Positions 43 to 50,149 of a stretch of DNA of 58,084 nt are shown piece after piece (the stretch's first letter is position 1; each line of letters begins with the position of its first letter). The stretch covers positions 1-58,084 of IMG/VR virus record IMGVR_UViG_3300020442_001798, one strand, 5' to 3'. The notes beneath the pieces were generated by a model. The model made no database searches. It worked only from the letters and a program-made list of their open reading frames with translations, and was not told where the DNA came from. Both the position numbers and the translations under genes were made by a program. Source of the stretch: a virus.

Positions 43-68
43 TGTAGTGAATGTTTAGGAGGAATAAA

Positions 69-1046
69 ATGAATAGACCTTATACCGGATATGACAAGAC
101 CGCTTCTGGTAAGCGTCCGGGTTTTGAAAAACTTATTGATCTTTTGGAAGACCATTTTGGTCTTTGGAACAATGGTACTTATGCTGTGAGAAAGAAGCGT
201 GGGAAGTCAAGCTTCTCGGTTCATGCCACTGGTAGGGCAGGAGATTTGTCTTGGAGATCTGCACCTTATCGTGGGTCAGGTAATTATCAAGATGCCGTTC
301 GTATGATGGATTTTTTGGTGGACAATGCAGATGTTCTTGAGATTGAAGCTGTGTTTGATTATTATCCAAAGCCTTATGGTCGTGGATGGAAATGTGATCG
401 TAACGCTTGGAATAACTACTCTAGGAAAGCATTCAGCGGTGTTCCCGGGGGAGATTGGGTTCATGTGGAGATCTCAAATAAATATGCGGATGACCCAGCT
501 TATTATGAGCGTGTAATCGGTGATCTTCTAGGTCAGGGAGTGGCTTCTGTTAAGCCTGCTGCTAAAACTCAGACTCCTCCTTCTGGGAAGACTCCTTGGT
601 TGCAAATTGGTTCTAAAGGTGATGCTGTTAAAGAAGTTCAGGAAATTGTGGGTGCAAAACCTGATGGAGATTTTGGTCCTAAAACTGAAGAGGCTGTTAA
701 AGCGTGGCAGGCAGACCATGATCTTCATGTTGATGGTATTTGGGGTCCGGGTTCGGACAAGCACGCTAGGCGTTGTGACTGCGAAGCAGACACTCCATCA
801 CCAACCCCTCAGACGGCTCCAGAAGCCCCTCAGACATCTTCTATGAGGTATCCCGGCCCTCCAATGATTAAAGTGGGTTCTAACGAGACTGAGGCTGTGA
901 AAGCTATTCAGGCTAAGGTTGGAGCAAAGGTCGATGGTCAGTATGGACCTCAGACTCGCCAGCTTGTTCGCAACTGGCAGGCTCAGAACAGCTCTCGTCC
1001 TGACGGTATTGTTGGTCCTGCTACTTGGAGAAGAATGTTTGGATGA
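69..1046 (+). CDS. Endolysin: M15-type peptidase with two peptidoglycan-binding domains
   Basis: This is probably the phage endolysin, cutting the peptide part of host peptidoglycan at the end of infection. An ATG exists at 51, but GGAGGA (57-62) lies inside that extension and is well spaced for the ATG at 69, so 69 is chosen (325 aa). Residues 50-59 fit SxHxxGxAxD, the zinc-binding motif of M15/VanY peptidases (Ser50, His52, Asp59). His132-x-Glu134 supplies the remaining ligand and the catalytic acid. Two C-terminal repeats (about 175-235 and 262-323) match the PG_binding_1 pattern, with DGxFGPxTxxAVxxWQ-like cores and DGxxGP ends. No signal peptide is present, so export would depend on a holin. 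The stop codon overlaps the next start (ATGA), and that gene encodes a holin-like protein, supporting a lysis cassette. The exact bond cut (D-Ala-D-Ala or L-Ala-D-Glu) cannot be told. Confidence 0.85.
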   Translation: MNRPYTGYDKTASGKRPGFEKLIDLLEDHFGLWNNGTYAVRKKRGKSSFSVHATGRAGDLSWRSAPYRGSGNYQDAVRMMDFLVDNADVLEIEAVFDYYPKPYGRGWKCDRNAWNNYSRKAFSGVPGGDWVHVEISNKYADDPAYYERVIGDLLGQGVASVKPAAKTQTPPSGKTPWLQIGSKGDAVKEVQEIVGAKPDGDFGPKTEEAVKAWQADHDLHVDGIWGPGSDKHARRCDCEADTPSPTPQTAPEAPQTSSMRYPGPPMIKVGSNETEAVKAIQAKVGAKVDGQYGPQTRQLVRNWQAQNSSRPDGIVGPATWRRMFG

Positions 1047-1267
1047 AAGATAAAATTATGTATATCCTTTCGGTGGGTGTTATTGCATGTATCCTCACTG
1101 CTATTGTCGGGGATTATGTGGTTGCGTCTTTTGAGACATTTGAAACAGGTGAGGCGGTCAACGTATCGTCTGATGTCATGACACTTGTTCAGACCGCTCT
1201 TGGTGGTGTTATTGGTATCATTGGTGGATACTTTGGTGCTAAAGGCTCAAACAAGAGTGACGACTGA
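1043..1267 (+). CDS. Holin-like small membrane protein
   Basis: This 74-residue protein has two hydrophobic segments (about residues 5-27 and 45-66), separated by a short acidic stretch and followed by a charged tail (KGSNKSDD). That layout is usual for class II holins, which make membrane holes that release the endolysin. The ATG at 1043 overlaps the endolysin stop, so translation is probably coupled. Position next to the endolysin is the main support. Proteins at 3892, 20237 and 22854 are also small and membrane-bound, so which one is the functional holin or antiholin is uncertain. Confidence 0.65.
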   Translation: MKDKIMYILSVGVIACILTAIVGDYVVASFETFETGEAVNVSSDVMTLVQTALGGVIGIIGGYFGAKGSNKSDD

Positions 1268-1527
1268 TGAAGGTATGGATTGATCAAGACTTATGCACAG
1301 GTGACGGCTTGTGTGCTGAAATTTGCCCTGATGTATTTGCTATGCATGATGATGGCTTAGCTTATGTGAAAGAACCTTCTTGGCCGAATCTCTTTGGGAG
1401 CGACGGCAAGGGGGACGGCCCTGCATTGCAGATGCATCAGACTGCTGAATTTGGGGAGAATCTTTTGGATTCGGTTATTGAGGCAGCAGAAGACTGCCCC
1501 GGAGAATGTATCTTTATTGAACCTTAG
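1267..1527 (+). CDS. Ferredoxin, single-cluster actinobacterial type
   Basis: This 86-residue protein is a small iron-sulfur electron carrier. Cluster residues visible are Cys10, Asp13, Cys16 and Cys20-Pro, with Cys77-Pro and Cys81 near the C-terminus. The C-x2-D-x2-C-x3-CP pattern matches ferredoxins in which Asp replaces the second Cys, as in Pyrococcus furiosus ferredoxin, so a [4Fe-4S] cluster with an Asp ligand or a [3Fe-4S] cluster is expected. An insertion of about 25 residues between the two halves and the ECPGECIFIE-like end resemble host actinobacterial ferredoxins, as recalled rather than searched. The start overlaps the holin stop (TGATG), placing it in the lysis operon. It is probably a host-derived auxiliary gene. 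Its partner (a cytochrome P450, a reductase or a host enzyme) is unknown. Confidence 0.85.
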   Translation: MKVWIDQDLCTGDGLCAEICPDVFAMHDDGLAYVKEPSWPNLFGSDGKGDGPALQMHQTAEFGENLLDSVIEAAEDCPGECIFIEP

Positions 1528-1584: not shown

Positions 1585-3895
1585 GTCATGGTTTAGACCA
1601 TCTAGAACACGTTTTTTACCTGCGGCTGCTGTAGTTGCCCTCGCTATGTTCTCTTTGTTTCCGAGCGTAGCGAGGGCTTCTGCTTACACTGTGACTGAAG
1701 AGTCTGACTGGTACTTTGAGGTTGAGTCGGACGACACAAATGTTGTCATCTATGGCAACTCAAACAGTTCTTGTAACCAGTTGGCATCTGACCCTTTCTT
1801 GTGGCTGTACGACTTGTCGGGCACGGTACTCGCATCAAATGATGACGGTAACCACAATAATGAAACACAGTGCGTTTCATCAAAGATTGACACAACCCTA
1901 GACGCTGGTGTTTATCGCATTCACGCTGGGTATTGTTGTTCGCAAAGAGGGAACGGCTATGATGGTGGCGAATACGAACTCGTTACCGATCTGACGCTTG
2001 CCACCGACTTCAGCACTTACAACGGGGTGAGATTTTCTTATACTCCTGCATACATTGAGCAAACAATTGACGTTTCTTCGTATGCGGGAGAAATTGATTC
2101 AATTGTTGTCACCCCTCTTGTTAAGCGTTTCTACGATGTTAACGATTACGTGGCGACGCAGTATGCCGCTTACGACTCAGCAGGTAACTTGCTGCAAGGC
2201 AATCTGACAGCATCAGCACCTACTTCTTGGGTTGAAGTTGGGTCTAGTTGGTTTCAAGCCTCAGTGTCATCTAGTGTTCAAGATTCAACAAGTTGGGACA
2301 GTGTAAAAATTCGTATCTGGGCTAAAGACGGTGAAAGTTGGGGCGGCAACTATGGCACTGAAATAAAAGAAGTTTCATTCAAGGCGAAACTAGACGGTTC
2401 TGCGGAGTGGACTGATTTAACAAGCCTGCTTGCTAATCCATACTTTAACTCTATTAATAGTAATTCTCCACCAAGCGGCTGGTCTTCCAATGCTTCTTGG
2501 GATACATGTCAAGGTTTAACTTCTTCAACTTTGTGTGGCTTTGTAGTCAATAATTGGACATGGGCAACTCCTGCCACAACTACGACAACCACTACAACAT
2601 CTACCACAACAACTACCACCACAGTCCCTCAGACGATTGGTCCTCCAATGAACTTGACTGGGCAGGTTACAGAGAATGGTGTATTTCTTGATTGGGATGC
2701 TCCCAATACCGGCAATGTTGATCCAGAAAGATATGCAATATCTTTTCGAATACCACCGGGCGCAGGGTGGGGAGTTGCTACAGGAAATGTTGGTGATGAA
2801 AACGCTTTAAATACTGAATACACGCTTCCTTTTAGTATTTTTGAGAACACAGGTGGTCTAGGAGAGTCTTATGTGTTCGACATTCGTGCAGATAATGATA
2901 CACTAGGTGTATATTCTGGGTGGTCTTCACAGGTCACCCTTTTGGTACAGGAGGTAACACCATCAACAACATCCACAACTACTACGACAACTACGGTTCC
3001 CCCAACTACAACCACTTCCACGACAACCACCACATCAACCACAACAACGACAACCACAACAACGACAAGTACGACAACAACCACCACGGTTCCCCCAACA
3101 ACTACAACAAGTACGACAACCACAGTTCCACCAACAACCACAACAACTTCTACGACTTCAACTATCCCGCCGACTACAAGTACGACAACTACGACTACAA
3201 CAACAATTCCACCTACTACAACGTCCACCACTTCCCCTCCAACTACAACTACCACTACATCGTTGCCACCAACAACAACGTCAACGTCTACAACCACAAC
3301 GACTGTCCAGCCTGCCACAACGACGACGATTCCGACAACTACAACAACCACCGCTCCTTTGACGCTCGCAGAAGAAAGAGCTGAGGAAACTAAGATTGAG
3401 TTTGAAGAGTTAGGTATTGATACTGAAGGCGTTGATTTGCTTGAGGTTGATCAGGCTGAGATTAAAATTGTTGAAGAATTGGATCAGTTGGACGAGGAGT
3501 TAGCCGAAGACTTTTTGGATGTTGTTGACGGTGATGTGACAGTTGAAGAAGTCTCGGTTTTGATTGAAGACGATAATTTTGATGAGATTTCTGATGATGC
3601 GAAGGTTATTCTTGCGGCTGCTTTGACTGAGGCTGATGATGAAGTTAAAGATGAGTTTGAGGAATCTGTAAACATCTTTGAAGATGAGAGTTTTAATGAT
3701 TATGTCGCTAAAGATTCGAATATTACGACTGAAGAGCGACGTACTGTTGTAGCAGCCACTGCTGCTGTTGCAGCGACTGCTGGCGCTGCTGCTGGCCCTT
3801 CTGCTGGTCCTAAGCCTTCTGGAGGCGGTGGAGGCGGTGGAGGTGGCTCTGATGGCCCACGCAAGCGTGGAGGCTCATCAAGGAGGTCTAGATGA
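1583..3895 (+). CDS. Secreted Thr-rich multidomain surface protein
   Basis: The 770-residue product starts with a Sec-type signal peptide (positive N-terminus, hydrophobic residues about 12-27, ARASA cleavage region near 30-34). Residues about 35-135 look like a beta-sandwich similar to pre-peptidase C-terminal domains, with Cys pairs. About 135-330 is a second beta-rich region. About 350-450 resembles a fibronectin type III domain. Long Thr runs broken by VPP/IPP follow (about 460-590), then an acidic helical segment (about 595-710), an Ala-rich stretch, nine glycines and a basic RSRRSR-like end. Such Thr-Pro linkers are typical of extracellular actinobacterial proteins. No enzyme motif is seen. 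It could be an exported adhesin, a cell-wall protein that changes the infected cell, or a virion surface protein that lost its normal context. No Shine-Dalgarno site precedes the start. Confidence 0.6.
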   Translation: MSWFRPSRTRFLPAAAVVALAMFSLFPSVARASAYTVTEESDWYFEVESDDTNVVIYGNSNSSCNQLASDPFLWLYDLSGTVLASNDDGNHNNETQCVSSKIDTTLDAGVYRIHAGYCCSQRGNGYDGGEYELVTDLTLATDFSTYNGVRFSYTPAYIEQTIDVSSYAGEIDSIVVTPLVKRFYDVNDYVATQYAAYDSAGNLLQGNLTASAPTSWVEVGSSWFQASVSSSVQDSTSWDSVKIRIWAKDGESWGGNYGTEIKEVSFKAKLDGSAEWTDLTSLLANPYFNSINSNSPPSGWSSNASWDTCQGLTSSTLCGFVVNNWTWATPATTTTTTTTSTTTTTTTVPQTIGPPMNLTGQVTENGVFLDWDAPNTGNVDPERYAISFRIPPGAGWGVATGNVGDENALNTEYTLPFSIFENTGGLGESYVFDIRADNDTLGVYSGWSSQVTLLVQEVTPSTTSTTTTTTTVPPTTTTSTTTTTSTTTTTTTTTTSTTTTTTVPPTTTTSTTTTVPPTTTTTSTTSTIPPTTSTTTTTTTTIPPTTTSTTSPPTTTTTTSLPPTTTSTSTTTTTVQPATTTTIPTTTTTTAPLTLAEERAEETKIEFEELGIDTEGVDLLEVDQAEIKIVEELDQLDEELAEDFLDVVDGDVTVEEVSVLIEDDNFDEISDDAKVILAAALTEADDEVKDEFEESVNIFEDESFNDYVAKDSNITTEERRTVVAATAAVAATAGAAAGPSAGPKPSGGGGGGGGGSDGPRKRGGSSRRSR
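2576..3357 (+). repeat. Low-complexity ACA/ACC/ACT tracts encoding poly-Thr
   Basis: Two degenerate Thr-codon tracts lie at about 2576-2625 and 2957-3357, the second interrupted by VPP, IPP and LPP codons every 8-15 residues. The strand is nearly free of G here. Codon choice among ACA, ACC, ACT and ACG is mixed, so the repeat is kept at protein level rather than by DNA slippage alone. Confidence 0.85.
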
Positions 3896-4077
3896 TTAAA
3901 AAGATTTTGAAAAGAGTGCTAAAGGAAAGTTATTCCTTAGCTTGGACTCTTGCTGGTACTGGCTTAGTTTTAATTACTTTGTCGGGTCAGACTAGAGATT
4001 GGGGCATATGGATAAGCCTTTCCGCTCTCACAGTACACTTGCTTGCTATTATCTTTATATCAGAAGACGAATTGTAA
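3892..4077 (+). CDS. Small membrane protein with two transmembrane segments
   Basis: The 61-residue protein has a basic N-terminus (MIKKILKRVLK) and two hydrophobic segments at about 17-31 and 39-57, ending in acidic EDEL. Its ATG overlaps the stop of the secreted protein gene (ATGA), so the two are translationally coupled and may act together. The size would fit an antiholin or an anchoring partner, but no family is recognised. Confidence 0.55.
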   Translation: MIKKILKRVLKESYSLAWTLAGTGLVLITLSGQTRDWGIWISLSALTVHLLAIIFISEDEL

Positions 4078-4103
4078 GCATATCCTTCTAAGCATTTATT
4101 AGG

Positions 4104-4109
4104 TATAAT
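4104..4109 (+). promoter_or_regulatory. Consensus TATAAT -10 box for the Cys-rich peptide
   Basis: GGTATAATGG contains a perfect TATAAT that ends 6 nt before the ATG at 4116, so transcription would start at or next to the start codon. No Shine-Dalgarno site or clear -35 box is seen, as expected for a leaderless promoter. Confidence 0.6.
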
Positions 4110-4115
4110 GGTATC

Positions 4116-4193
4116 ATGAGAAATAAGTATTGTGAATGCGGTTGTGAATGTGAAGAGGGTTGCGGATGCGGCTGTGATTCATGTAACTGCTGA
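4116..4193 (+). CDS. Cys-rich 25-residue peptide, metallothionein-like
   Basis: This open frame encodes 25 residues, nine of them Cys, at positions 6, 8, 10, 12, 16, 18, 20, 23 and 25. The C-x-C spacing recurs throughout and the gaps hold Glu, Gly, Asp and Asn. Such C-x-C arrays bind thiophilic metals in metallothioneins; here the function is inferred from composition only. It has its own consensus TATAAT 6 nt upstream and would be read from a leaderless message. The head-tail connector gene follows 12 nt later, so the promoter may serve that operon too. It could instead be a non-translated leader, but a chance run of nine Cys codons is unlikely. Confidence 0.6.
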   Translation: MRNKYCECGCECEEGCGCGCDSCNC

Positions 4194-4205
4194 ATGGAGA
4201 TTTAA

Positions 4206-5129
4206 ATGGATGACGTAAAAATTGATACATCAAAAACTCTTACTCTGACTCTTCCGAGTGACGCTGACTCTAATAATGTTACGGTTGTGTTAACACATGA
4301 GTTTGGTGATGTAGTGCAGGCATCTACTGCCGCAACAAGATCGTCTGAAGGGGTGTATACAATAACTTACGGCCAGCAGGATTCGGGCATTTATGTTTTA
4401 AATTCTGCTGGAAAGTACAGGGCTGATTTCACTTATTCGATTAGTAGCACTGAGTATACTCAGTCTCAATATATTAATGTGTACACACCATATATTACTT
4501 GGGCAGAGTTTTTGACAAACCATAGCGATTTGAGCGGGTATGCTTCTCAGTTTGATCATTTTGAGAAGAGAGCAAGGAATATTATTGACACTCACTGTGG
4601 GCAGTCTTTTGAATATTACCCAAATAAAAGTTTGACTTTAGATGGAGGCAATCATAAAAATTTGCATTTGCCTATTCCGATTGCAACTTTAAGAAAAGTT
4701 ACATTTAATGCGGGCGATTCCGATGCAGAGGTTATTCACGACTACGCAGATTCAAGTCTTTTAAATATTGAAAAAGTCAGGCAATCGTTTAATTTTGAAT
4801 CTTCTTTTTATTTAAGATTTAAAGCTAATATTGTACAAACAAATACATCTAGAATTCTAGGTAAGACTTTTAAGCAACATTCTGATTACAAGGTTGAAGG
4901 GGACTTTGGTTGGAGATATGTTCCCATGAATATTAAGCAGGCTGCCGATTTGATTATTGCAGACTTAATGAATGATGATTCTGAGTACCGTCGTCATGGT
5001 ATTACAAGTGTAGATATGGATACTATTAGCTTTAGTATGAAGGGTTCTTTCTATGAAAGCACTGGAAATATTGAAGCAGATGTCCTCCTTACAGACTACA
5101 CCTTGTTTGTTATGGATTATATTACCTGA
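4206..5129 (+). CDS. Head-tail connector (adaptor) with N-terminal Ig-like domain
   Basis: The 307-residue protein has a beta-rich N-terminal region (about 1-95) followed by an alpha-helical part. The sequence around 105-160 (a helix ending in ARNIIDTHCGQSF, then LTLDGG and LPIPIATLRKVTF) is typical of gp6/gp15-type adaptors that sit between the portal and the tail. It has a GGAG ribosome site at 4195-4198. It begins the connector-tail order adaptor, stopper, neck, terminator, tube. The Ig-like N-terminal addition is not part of the basic adaptor and may be exposed on the virion. Confidence 0.65.
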   Translation: MDDVKIDTSKTLTLTLPSDADSNNVTVVLTHEFGDVVQASTAATRSSEGVYTITYGQQDSGIYVLNSAGKYRADFTYSISSTEYTQSQYINVYTPYITWAEFLTNHSDLSGYASQFDHFEKRARNIIDTHCGQSFEYYPNKSLTLDGGNHKNLHLPIPIATLRKVTFNAGDSDAEVIHDYADSSLLNIEKVRQSFNFESSFYLRFKANIVQTNTSRILGKTFKQHSDYKVEGDFGWRYVPMNIKQAADLIIADLMNDDSEYRRHGITSVDMDTISFSMKGSFYESTGNIEADVLLTDYTLFVMDYIT

Positions 5130-5509: not shown

Positions 5510-6042
5510 TGCAGGTTCGTATCAATCCGACTTCGATTGAAACAATGAGATTCCTACAAAATAATATTGATCAATTTCCTAACAGGGTTCAGGCAGCTAA
5601 AGGTAAAGCTGTTGTTTCGGCAAAGTTGAAGATTGAACAATATATGAAGTCTCAGTATGGAAAAGTTGGTAATGCGATGGTTGTTGAAGAAAAAGTTGGT
5701 CCAAAAACAGTAACTGTTAACATCCGTCCAAAGCGGGCAGGCCGTCCAAACAGTAGAACTGGATATTCTGCTGCTTGGGGTGCAAACGTTAAGTTTTATG
5801 GAAGAAGGAGTTTTAGTTCGTCAGGAAGTGTTCAAATTTATAAATTAAGAAAAGGCAGCACTCCCCCTTATCCGCCATACATAAGAAGCTTTAGAGTCAA
5901 GGCTACACCAAAAGATATGTCTTTTAGATCAAATATTAGGCGTGAATCTCGTCGCATTTTGGAGAGAGAAATGATGAAATCTTTACGCTCTTATGGATTT
6001 GGTGCAAGAGGCGGCGCGCCGAGAGGTATGGCAGACATTTAA
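5506..6042 (+). CDS. Neck or tail-completion protein (HK97 gp10-like)
   Basis: A basic 178-residue protein with a helical start (about 10-55) and many Arg/Lys residues throughout, in the third position of the connector block, where HK97 gp10-type tail-completion proteins are found. ATGATG at 5506-5511 leaves the first codon ambiguous by one position; it overlaps the previous stop. Confidence 0.5.
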   Translation: MMQVRINPTSIETMRFLQNNIDQFPNRVQAAKGKAVVSAKLKIEQYMKSQYGKVGNAMVVEEKVGPKTVTVNIRPKRAGRPNSRTGYSAAWGANVKFYGRRSFSSSGSVQIYKLRKGSTPPYPPYIRSFRVKATPKDMSFRSNIRRESRRILEREMMKSLRSYGFGARGGAPRGMADI

Positions 6043-23769: not shown

Positions 23770-23959
23770 TGTTGAAATCTGGGCATCGCTTGGAATTACT
23801 AAAAACCTTGGAAATTATGAATCACTTCGTCTAGATGCTGGTGCTAGAGTTAAGGCATCATCTGAAGATGACGAACAGGCTTGGGCTGATCTGTGGAAAG
23901 CAGTTGACGAACAGATTGAGGCTAAGCTTCGGGAGCTAGATAGCGAGAATGAAAAGTGA
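23756..23959 (+). CDS. Acidic small protein of unknown function
   Basis: 67 residues, helical, rich in Glu and Ala, with an EDDEQAWADLWKAVDEQIEAKL-like amphipathic stretch. It overlaps both neighbours by about 11-14 bases, so it belongs to the same coupled operon. AAGGAG upstream at 23741-23746 supports the start. Confidence 0.6.
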   Translation: MQESNVEIWASLGITKNLGNYESLRLDAGARVKASSEDDEQAWADLWKAVDEQIEAKLRELDSENEK

Positions 23960-24245
23960 TTGGAGAGACTATGCAGTCTGTTCACAAGACAAATCTCCAC
24001 ATAAGTGGTTGTCGTCAAATATTGACGAGATAAACTACGCTAAAGATGGGTGTAGAAGGTGTACTGTTCGTAAAGAGTGCTTGTATTCCGCAATTTATGA
24101 GAGAGAAGCATTTGTGGGTGTTAACGCAGGCTATTCCGAAATAGAGTACATGATTAGAACATGGGAGCCAGTAGAGGAAGACGATGAAACTAACTGGAGA
24201 AAATCTGATAGACTTATTCAAGTCCTATTCAGAGAAATCATCTAA
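23949..24245 (+). CDS. WhiB-like iron-sulfur regulator (divergent)
   Basis: Cys11 and the CRRCTVRKEC cluster (about 35-44) give the C...C-x2-C-x5-C pattern of WhiB-like proteins, which hold a [4Fe-4S] cluster and act with the sigma factor. The usual G-V-W-G-G turn is replaced by VGVNAGYSE, so it is divergent. WhiB proteins are confined to actinobacteria and their phages, which fixes the host group. It overlaps its neighbours, including a long overlap with the next gene (24184-24245). Confidence 0.75.
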   Translation: MKSDWRDYAVCSQDKSPHKWLSSNIDEINYAKDGCRRCTVRKECLYSAIYEREAFVGVNAGYSEIEYMIRTWEPVEEDDETNWRKSDRLIQVLFREII

Positions 24246-42060: not shown

Positions 42061-42068
42061 GCTATAAT
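42060..42068 (+). promoter_or_regulatory. Extended -10 promoter before the glycosyltransferase
   Basis: TGCTATAAT contains a perfect TATAAT (42063-42068), ending 8 nt before the ATG at 42077. It overlaps the T-tract of the terminator. The start codon has no ribosome site. Confidence 0.6.
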
Positions 42069-42076
42069 TTAGGGTA

Positions 42077-42886
42077 ATGGAACGTACTGAGCAAAAAGTT
42101 GAAATCACGCATGAGCAAATTGCTAACTGGTATCCAATGATTGCGACACCATGTTATGACAAACAAGTTAGTGAGCCTTATTTTTCTTCCATGATTAAAC
42201 TTGTTAACGGGTTTAATATGTTGGATATGAATTTTGCGATTAGCACAATATCTGACTCCCTAGTTACTAGGGCAAGAGATAACCTTGTTGCAAAGTTTAT
42301 GGCTAATCCAGACTTTACACATATAATGTTCATTGATGCAGACATTGGTTTTGACTATGAAGATATTATCAGAATGCTATGGCATGATAAAGATATTATT
42401 ACTGGATCTTATCCGATTAAAAAAATTAATTGGAATAAGGTTGAGAGCATGGTGAAAGAGGGAACGCCTGTAGAAAAACTTATGACTAAAAGTTTGAGAT
42501 ACGTTGTTAATCCAATTCAAGGCACTAAGGGTGAAGTAGAAGTTGATAATGGTGCTTTAAAAATTCGTGACGCTGGTACTGGCTTTATGTTGATTAAGCG
42601 AGAGGTTATTGAAAAAATGATTGAGGCGTATCCGGAAATGAAATTTAAAGATGACACTGGTTCTTTGAACGAAGAAGAGAAGAAGTGGACTTATCATTTC
42701 TTCGCAGATTACATTGATGATGATGGCAGACTTTTATCTGAAGATTATGGTTTTTGTAGATACTGGCAAAAACTAGGCGGTGCTGTTTGGGTTGATGCTT
42801 CTGTTGATATGCTTCATTTAGGTAGAATGGAATTTGAAGGAAAGATGATTGACTTCTTAGAAACAATTGTTGTTTCTGAAAACTGA
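42077..42886 (+). CDS. GT-A glycosyltransferase-like protein
   Basis: The 269-residue protein has RARDNLVAKF, then HIMFIDADIGFD (about 91-101) with the D-x-D metal motif of GT-A enzymes, DIITGSYPIKK, and a DAGTGFMLIKREV segment. C-terminal SEDYGFCRYWQKLGG resembles the catalytic acid region. Phages often carry this kind to glycosylate capsid or tail proteins. It is the last gene before the long control region. Confidence 0.75.
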   Translation: MERTEQKVEITHEQIANWYPMIATPCYDKQVSEPYFSSMIKLVNGFNMLDMNFAISTISDSLVTRARDNLVAKFMANPDFTHIMFIDADIGFDYEDIIRMLWHDKDIITGSYPIKKINWNKVESMVKEGTPVEKLMTKSLRYVVNPIQGTKGEVEVDNGALKIRDAGTGFMLIKREVIEKMIEAYPEMKFKDDTGSLNEEEKKWTYHFFADYIDDDGRLLSEDYGFCRYWQKLGGAVWVDASVDMLHLGRMEFEGKMIDFLETIVVSEN

Positions 42887-49490: not shown

Positions 49491-49874
49491 ATGTCGTTCT
49501 TTTCTGATGATGATATTGAACAGGCCATTAAGAATATGGGTGAAGTCCCAGATGGTTTGATTGATAATACTAATTATGTAGATTTATTTGCTGCCCATGT
49601 GGAATGTATAGATTCTCTTGATATTAATGATGAAGAGTCTAGATTGACATACATGATGAGAATTGTGAATATGGTTGGCGACCCTTCTGATGAAGATTTT
49701 GAAGTTAGAACGGTTGAGAATGCTACATGCATGACGTTTCATATTATTAATCTTCTTCAAATTGGTTCAATGATGAAAGATGATTTTGTAGAAATGTATG
49801 TTGATAGTTTGAGGAATGAGGTTTTACCTCAACTTAACCAAGATAAGGGAGCGATGCCGTATTGGAACAATTAG
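49491..49874 (+). CDS. Unknown acidic helical protein
   Basis: 127 residues, all-helical by pattern, strongly acidic. It starts 3 nt after the previous stop and overlaps the WhiB gene. No family is recognised. Confidence 0.55.
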   Translation: MSFFSDDDIEQAIKNMGEVPDGLIDNTNYVDLFAAHVECIDSLDINDEESRLTYMMRIVNMVGDPSDEDFEVRTVENATCMTFHIINLLQIGSMMKDDFVEMYVDSLRNEVLPQLNQDKGAMPYWNN

Positions 49875-50149
49875 ATGAATCATGGATGAAAGATGCTTTA
49901 TGCAAAGACCATGATACAGGATTGTTTTATCCAGATACTGGTGAAACTAATCAAGCAAGACAGGCAATAATGATATGTAAACGTTGTCCTGTTCGTGCTG
50001 AGTGTTTGTATTCAGCATTGTCTAGCCCAGAAACTTTTGGTGTATGGGGTGGGTATAGTTATCGTGGTAGGAGAAAATTGGTAAAAACTTTACAAGGTCC
50101 AATAACAATGGAGTTGATTAAGAAAGTTGTAAATGATGGTGTATACTAA
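49862..50149 (+). CDS. WhiB-like transcription regulator
   Basis: The 95-residue protein matches the WhiB family fully: Cys14, then CKRCPVRAEC (about 39-48) giving C-x2-C-x5-C, and the FGVWGGYSYRGRRK turn and basic tail. The [4Fe-4S] protein binds the host sigma factor and changes promoter choice; a mycobacteriophage WhiB is known to interfere with host WhiB2. TTG 49862 is likely with GGGAG 10 nt upstream. It may drive the early-to-late switch. Confidence 0.9.
   Translation: MEQLDESWMKDALCKDHDTGLFYPDTGETNQARQAIMICKRCPVRAECLYSALSSPETFGVWGGYSYRGRRKLVKTLQGPITMELIKKVVNDGVY

Follow-up and report, generated by a model that had tools for sequence, protein, structure and literature searches.

Copper metallothioneins of the Neurospora crassa type in fungi are 25 residues long and contain seven Cys, and the beta domain of animal metallothioneins is a nine-Cys M3 domain. 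Bacterial metallothioneins are about 50 amino acids or longer and have His ligands, with SmtA adopting a zinc-finger-like fold. Cys codons are also concentrated in the polycysteine leaderless short ORFs of mycobacteria (Canestrari et al. 2020), in which, as described in PMC9031893, they are contiguous. No report of a phage metallothionein was found in the literature searched. Here we describe a Cys-rich micropeptide gene in a virus record of 58,084 bases (the window, meaning the whole stretch of DNA analyzed), which belongs to an apparently undescribed family.

The Micropeptide Gene and Its Phage

A preliminary description of this DNA had reported a 25-residue ORF with nine Cys, and both the ORF and its Cys positions are confirmed (Table 1). 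The product, MRNKYCECGCECEEGCGCGCDSCNC, has Cys at residues 6, 8, 10, 12, 16, 18, 20, 23, and 25. This spacing is unique in the window, also when three mismatches are allowed, and turns up in none of 100 dinucleotide shuffles. Judged by the sequence comparisons given below, the ORF encodes a real, conserved peptide overlooked by standard gene finders.

Table 1. Positions of the micropeptide gene and of other features of the window
Feature	Position	Strand	Basis or remark
Endolysin, 331 aa, with SVHATGRAGD...WVHVE catalytic domain and peptidoglycan-binding domains	51–1046	+	PG_binding_1, E 4e-23; PHROG endolysins
Single-cluster ferredoxin, in the cargo region between endolysin and connector	1267–1527		Fer4_15, E 2e-18
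Secreted-looking protein, 770 aa	1583–3895		Long Thr-rich stretch
Membrane-like protein, 61 aa	3892–4077		Follows the 770-aa protein
Promoter element TAGGTATAAT, with -10 TATAAT at 4104–4109	4100–4109	+	Conserved in relatives
Cys-rich micropeptide gene, predicted leaderless start	4116–4193	+	ORF with ATG, 25 codons, TGA
GGAG Shine-Dalgarno site of the connector gene	4196–4199	+	Sequence; begins 3 nt past the micropeptide stop
Head-tail connector/adaptor gene, 307 aa, next in the operon	4206–5129	+	PHROG_442, E 2e-11
WhiB gene	23949–24245		Pfam Whib, E 1e-9
WhiB gene	49862–50149		Pfam Whib, E 2e-21

The first 20 kb of the window match no phage record at the DNA level. The downstream gene, which had been called a head-tail connector, is supported as such by its match to the head-tail adaptors of PHROG_442 and by its distant relationship to the head-to-tail adaptors of Streptomyces phages (~25% identity) and Rhodococcus phages. 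The window also encodes two WhiB proteins of differing divergence, and WhiB genes mark actinobacterial phages (PMC6802176, PMC10202952). Based on the connector kinship and the two WhiB genes, the window phage is taken to infect an uncultured actinobacterium.

A Family of Conserved Phage Micropeptides

The suggestion that related phages might carry the same small frame with conserved Cys is borne out by a family in IMG/VR, comprising 66 further stretches recovered by pattern scans from which simple repeats were removed; a first, looser Cys scan had been swamped by poly-Cys simple repeats. There are 33 distinct micropeptides, window included, with lengths of 25–33 aa and the pattern RxKxCxCGC[ED]Cx[ED][HQ]CxCGC[ED]xCxC-stop, in which the Cys spacing is C-x-C-G-C-x-C-x3-C-x-C-G-C-x2-C-x-C. 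A search with the connector alone returned 80 relatives, eight of which (L009–L016) have a Cys-rich ORF immediately upstream of the connector with all nine Cys in register. The window peptide is among the more diverged copies (Tyr5, Gly15, and Gly17), and a natural relative of it, MRNKTCDCGCECVEHCDCGCEECDC, is carried by L222. In L015, a 533-aa protein encoded at about 1041–2642, upstream of capsid-region genes, has an internal CSCGCGGC stretch that recalls the micropeptide.

All nine Cys, Lys4, Gly9, and Gly19 are strictly conserved in the first 31 peptides aligned. With both Gly positions left free, the search gained just two more peptides, the divergent L154 and L260, in which Gly9 is replaced by Asp and Asn, respectively. 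The spacers are mostly acidic, with D or E at positions 11, 14, 17, and 21. In six sequences found via the connector alone, with the Cys pattern unused, the 12 invariant codons (one Lys, nine Cys, and two Gly) each vary and do so only synonymously, which indicates that selection acts on the peptide. Across all members, pN/pS is 0.21 for all codons, a value favored by the Cys search pattern, which biases any count on the whole set, and 0.48 without the Cys codons. The conserved spacing, both Gly, and the Lys show residues other than Cys to be under selection as well. A scan that left the last two Cys and the stop optional returned 61 members and two simple repeats; all 61 members have both Cys and the stop, and the length after the first Cys is constant. 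A chance ORF is rejected on the shuffles, the synonymous-only changes, and the retention of this C-terminal end.

For the 31 members queried, Pfam and NCBIfam gave no match above curated cut-offs, whether to Metallothio_Pro or to any other metallothionein family, a result to be read with the reservation that HMMER may cope poorly with short, low-complexity queries of this kind. No match was obtained in PHROGs (three members queried) or among PDB sequences. Across 84,980 species genomes of bacteria and archaea, the first family pattern had no matches and a looser one had three, all simple repeats, and a cellular origin was therefore rejected. A tblastn search of isolated phages with the micropeptide gave no match, which does not imply absence because the low-complexity filter probably masks the query. 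Two endolysin catalytic domains likewise had no match in isolated phages, and Streptomyces phage NootNoot has no micropeptide-like ORF near its adaptor.

Promoter, Leader, and Loss of the Gene

As previously noted, a TATAAT box ends 6 nt before the ATG (gap 4110–4115); transcription is predicted to start at about 4116, at or beside the A of the start codon. A good -35 element is lacking, and a sigma-70 scan of 3850–4300 does not list this box. The promoter element has been kept in all nine relatives aligned, four of which have no ORF, and TGCTGAATGGAG, the Shine-Dalgarno region of the connector, is common to the window, L002, L004, L006, L008, L009, L010, and L262. In most of the more distant relatives without an adjacent micropeptide (L017–L081), a TATAAT/TACAAT-like box is found 6–9 nt before the connector ATG, so that the connector, too, looks leaderless. 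Since relatives without the ORF keep the promoter, the comparison assigns it to the connector operon, with the micropeptide gene lying between promoter and connector. The preliminary description's "own consensus leaderless promoter" is accordingly right as to the TATAAT box and the leaderless ATG in the window and misleading as to "own"; a private micropeptide promoter is rejected.

The leaderless start is local to the window and L260/L262, which have lost the leader, so that the ATG lies where transcription is expected to begin. In L009, L010, and L013, a leader with a Shine-Dalgarno site lies between the promoter and the micropeptide start, and the other connector-adjacent members mostly have such a site. 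Two further TACAAT/TATAAT boxes are found in the window 8 nt before an ATG (37–51 and 42063–42077), upstream of the endolysin gene at 51 and of a 269-aa glycosyltransferase-like gene at 42077. The window phage thus seems to make regular use of leaderless promoters with a T run in front.

In L002, L004, L006, and L008, the promoter and the connector Shine-Dalgarno site are kept, but the body of the ORF is lost, and ATA occupies the position of the ATG. Frame-breaking changes in close relatives had been anticipated as evidence against the gene; they do occur, but the wider family is strongly conserved, and the losses point to a gene that is dispensable rather than unreal. Between the promoter and the connector Shine-Dalgarno site of L002, where the micropeptide is lost, there is a short inverted repeat, AGCATC-GTTT-GATGCT (5955–5995). 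In a connector tree, the window falls inside a clade with an adjacent micropeptide, and L002, L004, and L008 are near neighbors without one. Upstream sequence of at least 3 kb is available for 66 connector loci; a micropeptide gene is present at 27 of them, adjacent to the connector in 15; long contigs of 42–105 kb without the micropeptide have no copy even at three mismatches. On this distribution, the micropeptide is an accessory gene, patchily lost, and the window copy may have survived while others were lost repeatedly, or recombination may have brought it back.

Gene Neighborhood

An endolysin gene lies directly upstream of the micropeptide in 29 of the 38 distinct versions (neighbor family F2), its stop often overlapping the micropeptide start (TGATG) or the micropeptide Shine-Dalgarno site. 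The downstream gene is the connector in 15 versions and another structural-region gene in 23; this second gene has ~110 codons and shows weak similarity of the LtfC-like and tail-fibre-assembly kinds. Between endolysin and micropeptide, the window has an 80-aa gene, the ferredoxin, the 770-aa Thr-rich protein, and the 61-aa gene. In most relatives, the last two are again found as a pair close to the endolysin, as a rule on its upstream side.

The motifs S-V-H-x-T-x2-A-x-D and W-x-H-x-E are invariant in eight aligned endolysins, a pattern resembling the zinc site of M15/VanY peptidases. The L016 endolysin matches the VanY Pfam (E 7e-16); a PDB profile search found nothing. Two pairings depart from this arrangement: the micropeptide accompanies a glycoside-hydrolase-like endolysin in L108 and a PG-binding protein with no evident catalytic domain in L252.

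It had also been proposed that the peptide supplies or withholds metal for the ferredoxin and WhiB clusters, and neither partner is supported. Fer4_15 has no match in six of the seven relatives searched, among these six three micropeptide carriers, and in the seventh it has a match below cut-off with stop codons inside; a thermonuclease-like gene occupies a place similar to that of the window ferredoxin in L009 and L013. The micropeptide itself has no Fer4 Pfam match, and its spacing, based on C-x-C, does not follow the ferredoxin cluster motif C-x2-C-x2-C-x3-C. WhiB is present in 19 of 21 long contigs, with most long relatives carrying one to three genes, and it is distributed alike among phages without (8 of 9) and with (11 of 12) the micropeptide.

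Proposed Function and Alternatives

The reading that we favor, with moderate confidence, is that the family represents a late-expressed, accessory, minimal single-domain metallothionein-like metal-thiolate peptide, for which zinc handling around the endolysin is one suggested use. The label follows from the nine Cys, the six C-x-C steps, the Gly and acidic spacers, and the single short domain, and the earlier likening to a minimal metallothionein is still the best functional guess. Metallothioneins have a high Cys share (~15–35%) and few or no aromatic residues; here 9 of 25 residues (36%) are Cys, in six C-x-C steps, across 33 distinct peptides, and most members have no aromatic residue in the core. 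There is one Tyr in the window and in L260, and one Tyr or Phe in a few others.

Translation, metal binding, and timing are what we infer from sequence. The nine Cys would enclose a small metal-thiolate cluster, for which the stoichiometry would be about three Zn(II), the number in M3Cys9 domains, or several Cu(I). The micropeptide would be made late in infection along with the lysis and head-tail genes, and in the dying host it may buffer zinc or copper as well as thiol stress from soft metals or oxidation. One use could be to hold or deliver zinc around the probably zinc-dependent endolysin, as suggested by the coupling of micropeptide and endolysin genes across the family. This link is the weakest step of the proposal, since the zinc dependence is read from motifs only, and the L108 and L252 pairings and the phages of the window group without a micropeptide keep it tentative. 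A private, translationally coupled zinc-handling micropeptide that serves a zinc-dependent endolysin and helps to time or power lysis is a doubtful extension of the proposal.

A peptide that binds no metal would act as a disulfide-forming thiol/redox buffer, or as a small endolysin or virion partner that folds by disulfides or binds a protein. The constant neighborhood of lysis and structural genes agrees with such a role, and a Cys content of 36% is compatible with redox buffering too. However, C-x-C pairs with fixed Gly and acidic spacers, all present in the micropeptide, typify metal-thiolate clusters and not disulfide folds; moreover, the number of Cys is odd and no signal peptide is evident, and we regard a metal-free peptide as unlikely. 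Much the least probable reading is a spurious ORF or passenger sequence with no product: although the ORF is very short and lost in the closest relatives, it has 66 further members of constant length after the first Cys, with a conserved stop and 12 codons that change only synonymously in the unbiased set.

Alternatively, the ORF could be a cysteine-responsive leaderless attenuator, in which a short, Cys-codon-rich frame ties translation of the connector to the supply of cysteine or Cys-tRNA. The apparently leaderless start in an actinobacterial phage and the nine Cys codons in 25 are as expected for this, and the micropeptide stop lies just before GGAG, so that a terminating ribosome would cover the Shine-Dalgarno site. 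There is also a precedent in the mycobacterial polycysteine leaderless short ORFs, as cited in PMC9031893 and PMC9094748, but its Cys codons are contiguous, whereas no two of the nine aligned Cys are adjacent here, and the conserved spacing, both Gly, and the Lys mean that non-Cys residues are also selected. Furthermore, most members are not leaderless and lie behind the endolysin, before one of two unrelated genes and at varying distances from it, and close relatives lose the ORF yet retain the promoter and the Shine-Dalgarno site. RNA folding is unremarkable (z -1.6) with no covarying pair, and a structured RNA at this locus was rejected on the same grounds. Attenuation is thus weaker than the metallothionein-like reading and quite improbable as the function of the family, although in the window and L262 it could still operate secondarily.

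Comparison with Known Metal-Binding Peptides

Proteins of this size escape annotation, and none of the family libraries searched contains this one despite its 66 further stretches. If it does bind metal, the micropeptide would be among the smallest metallothioneins known, and viral, and metal buffering in phage infection and lysis would become directly testable with a 25-residue synthetic peptide. Phages ~90% alike in connector protein, with and without the micropeptide and with the same promoter, provide a natural comparison.

By its anatomy the micropeptide is metallothionein-like, with a putative function, and it lies outside every described family against which it could be tested. Like the polycysteine short ORFs of mycobacteria, the window ORF is leaderless by its sequence, rich in Cys codons, placed before an operon, and set in an actinobacterial context; the mycobacterial ORFs, as described in PMC9031893, are regulatory, whereas the micropeptide family has a constrained sequence and consists mostly of genes that have a leader and follow an endolysin. 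BmtA/SmtA of cyanobacteria, PmtA of Pseudomonas, and mycobacterial MymT are likewise small, Cys-rich proteins, involved in zinc or copper storage, but they are longer and have His ligands, and the micropeptide has no Pfam or NCBIfam match. The closest resemblance in form is to the 25-residue fungal metallothioneins and the animal beta domain, which share with the micropeptide the size of a single domain, the series of C-x-C, small or polar spacers, and the expectation of no defined fold without metal. No sequence relation to either is detectable, and the number of Cys (seven in the fungal peptide) and their spacing differ; unlike both, the micropeptide has fixed C-G-C pairs and acidic spacers and is encoded by a phage.
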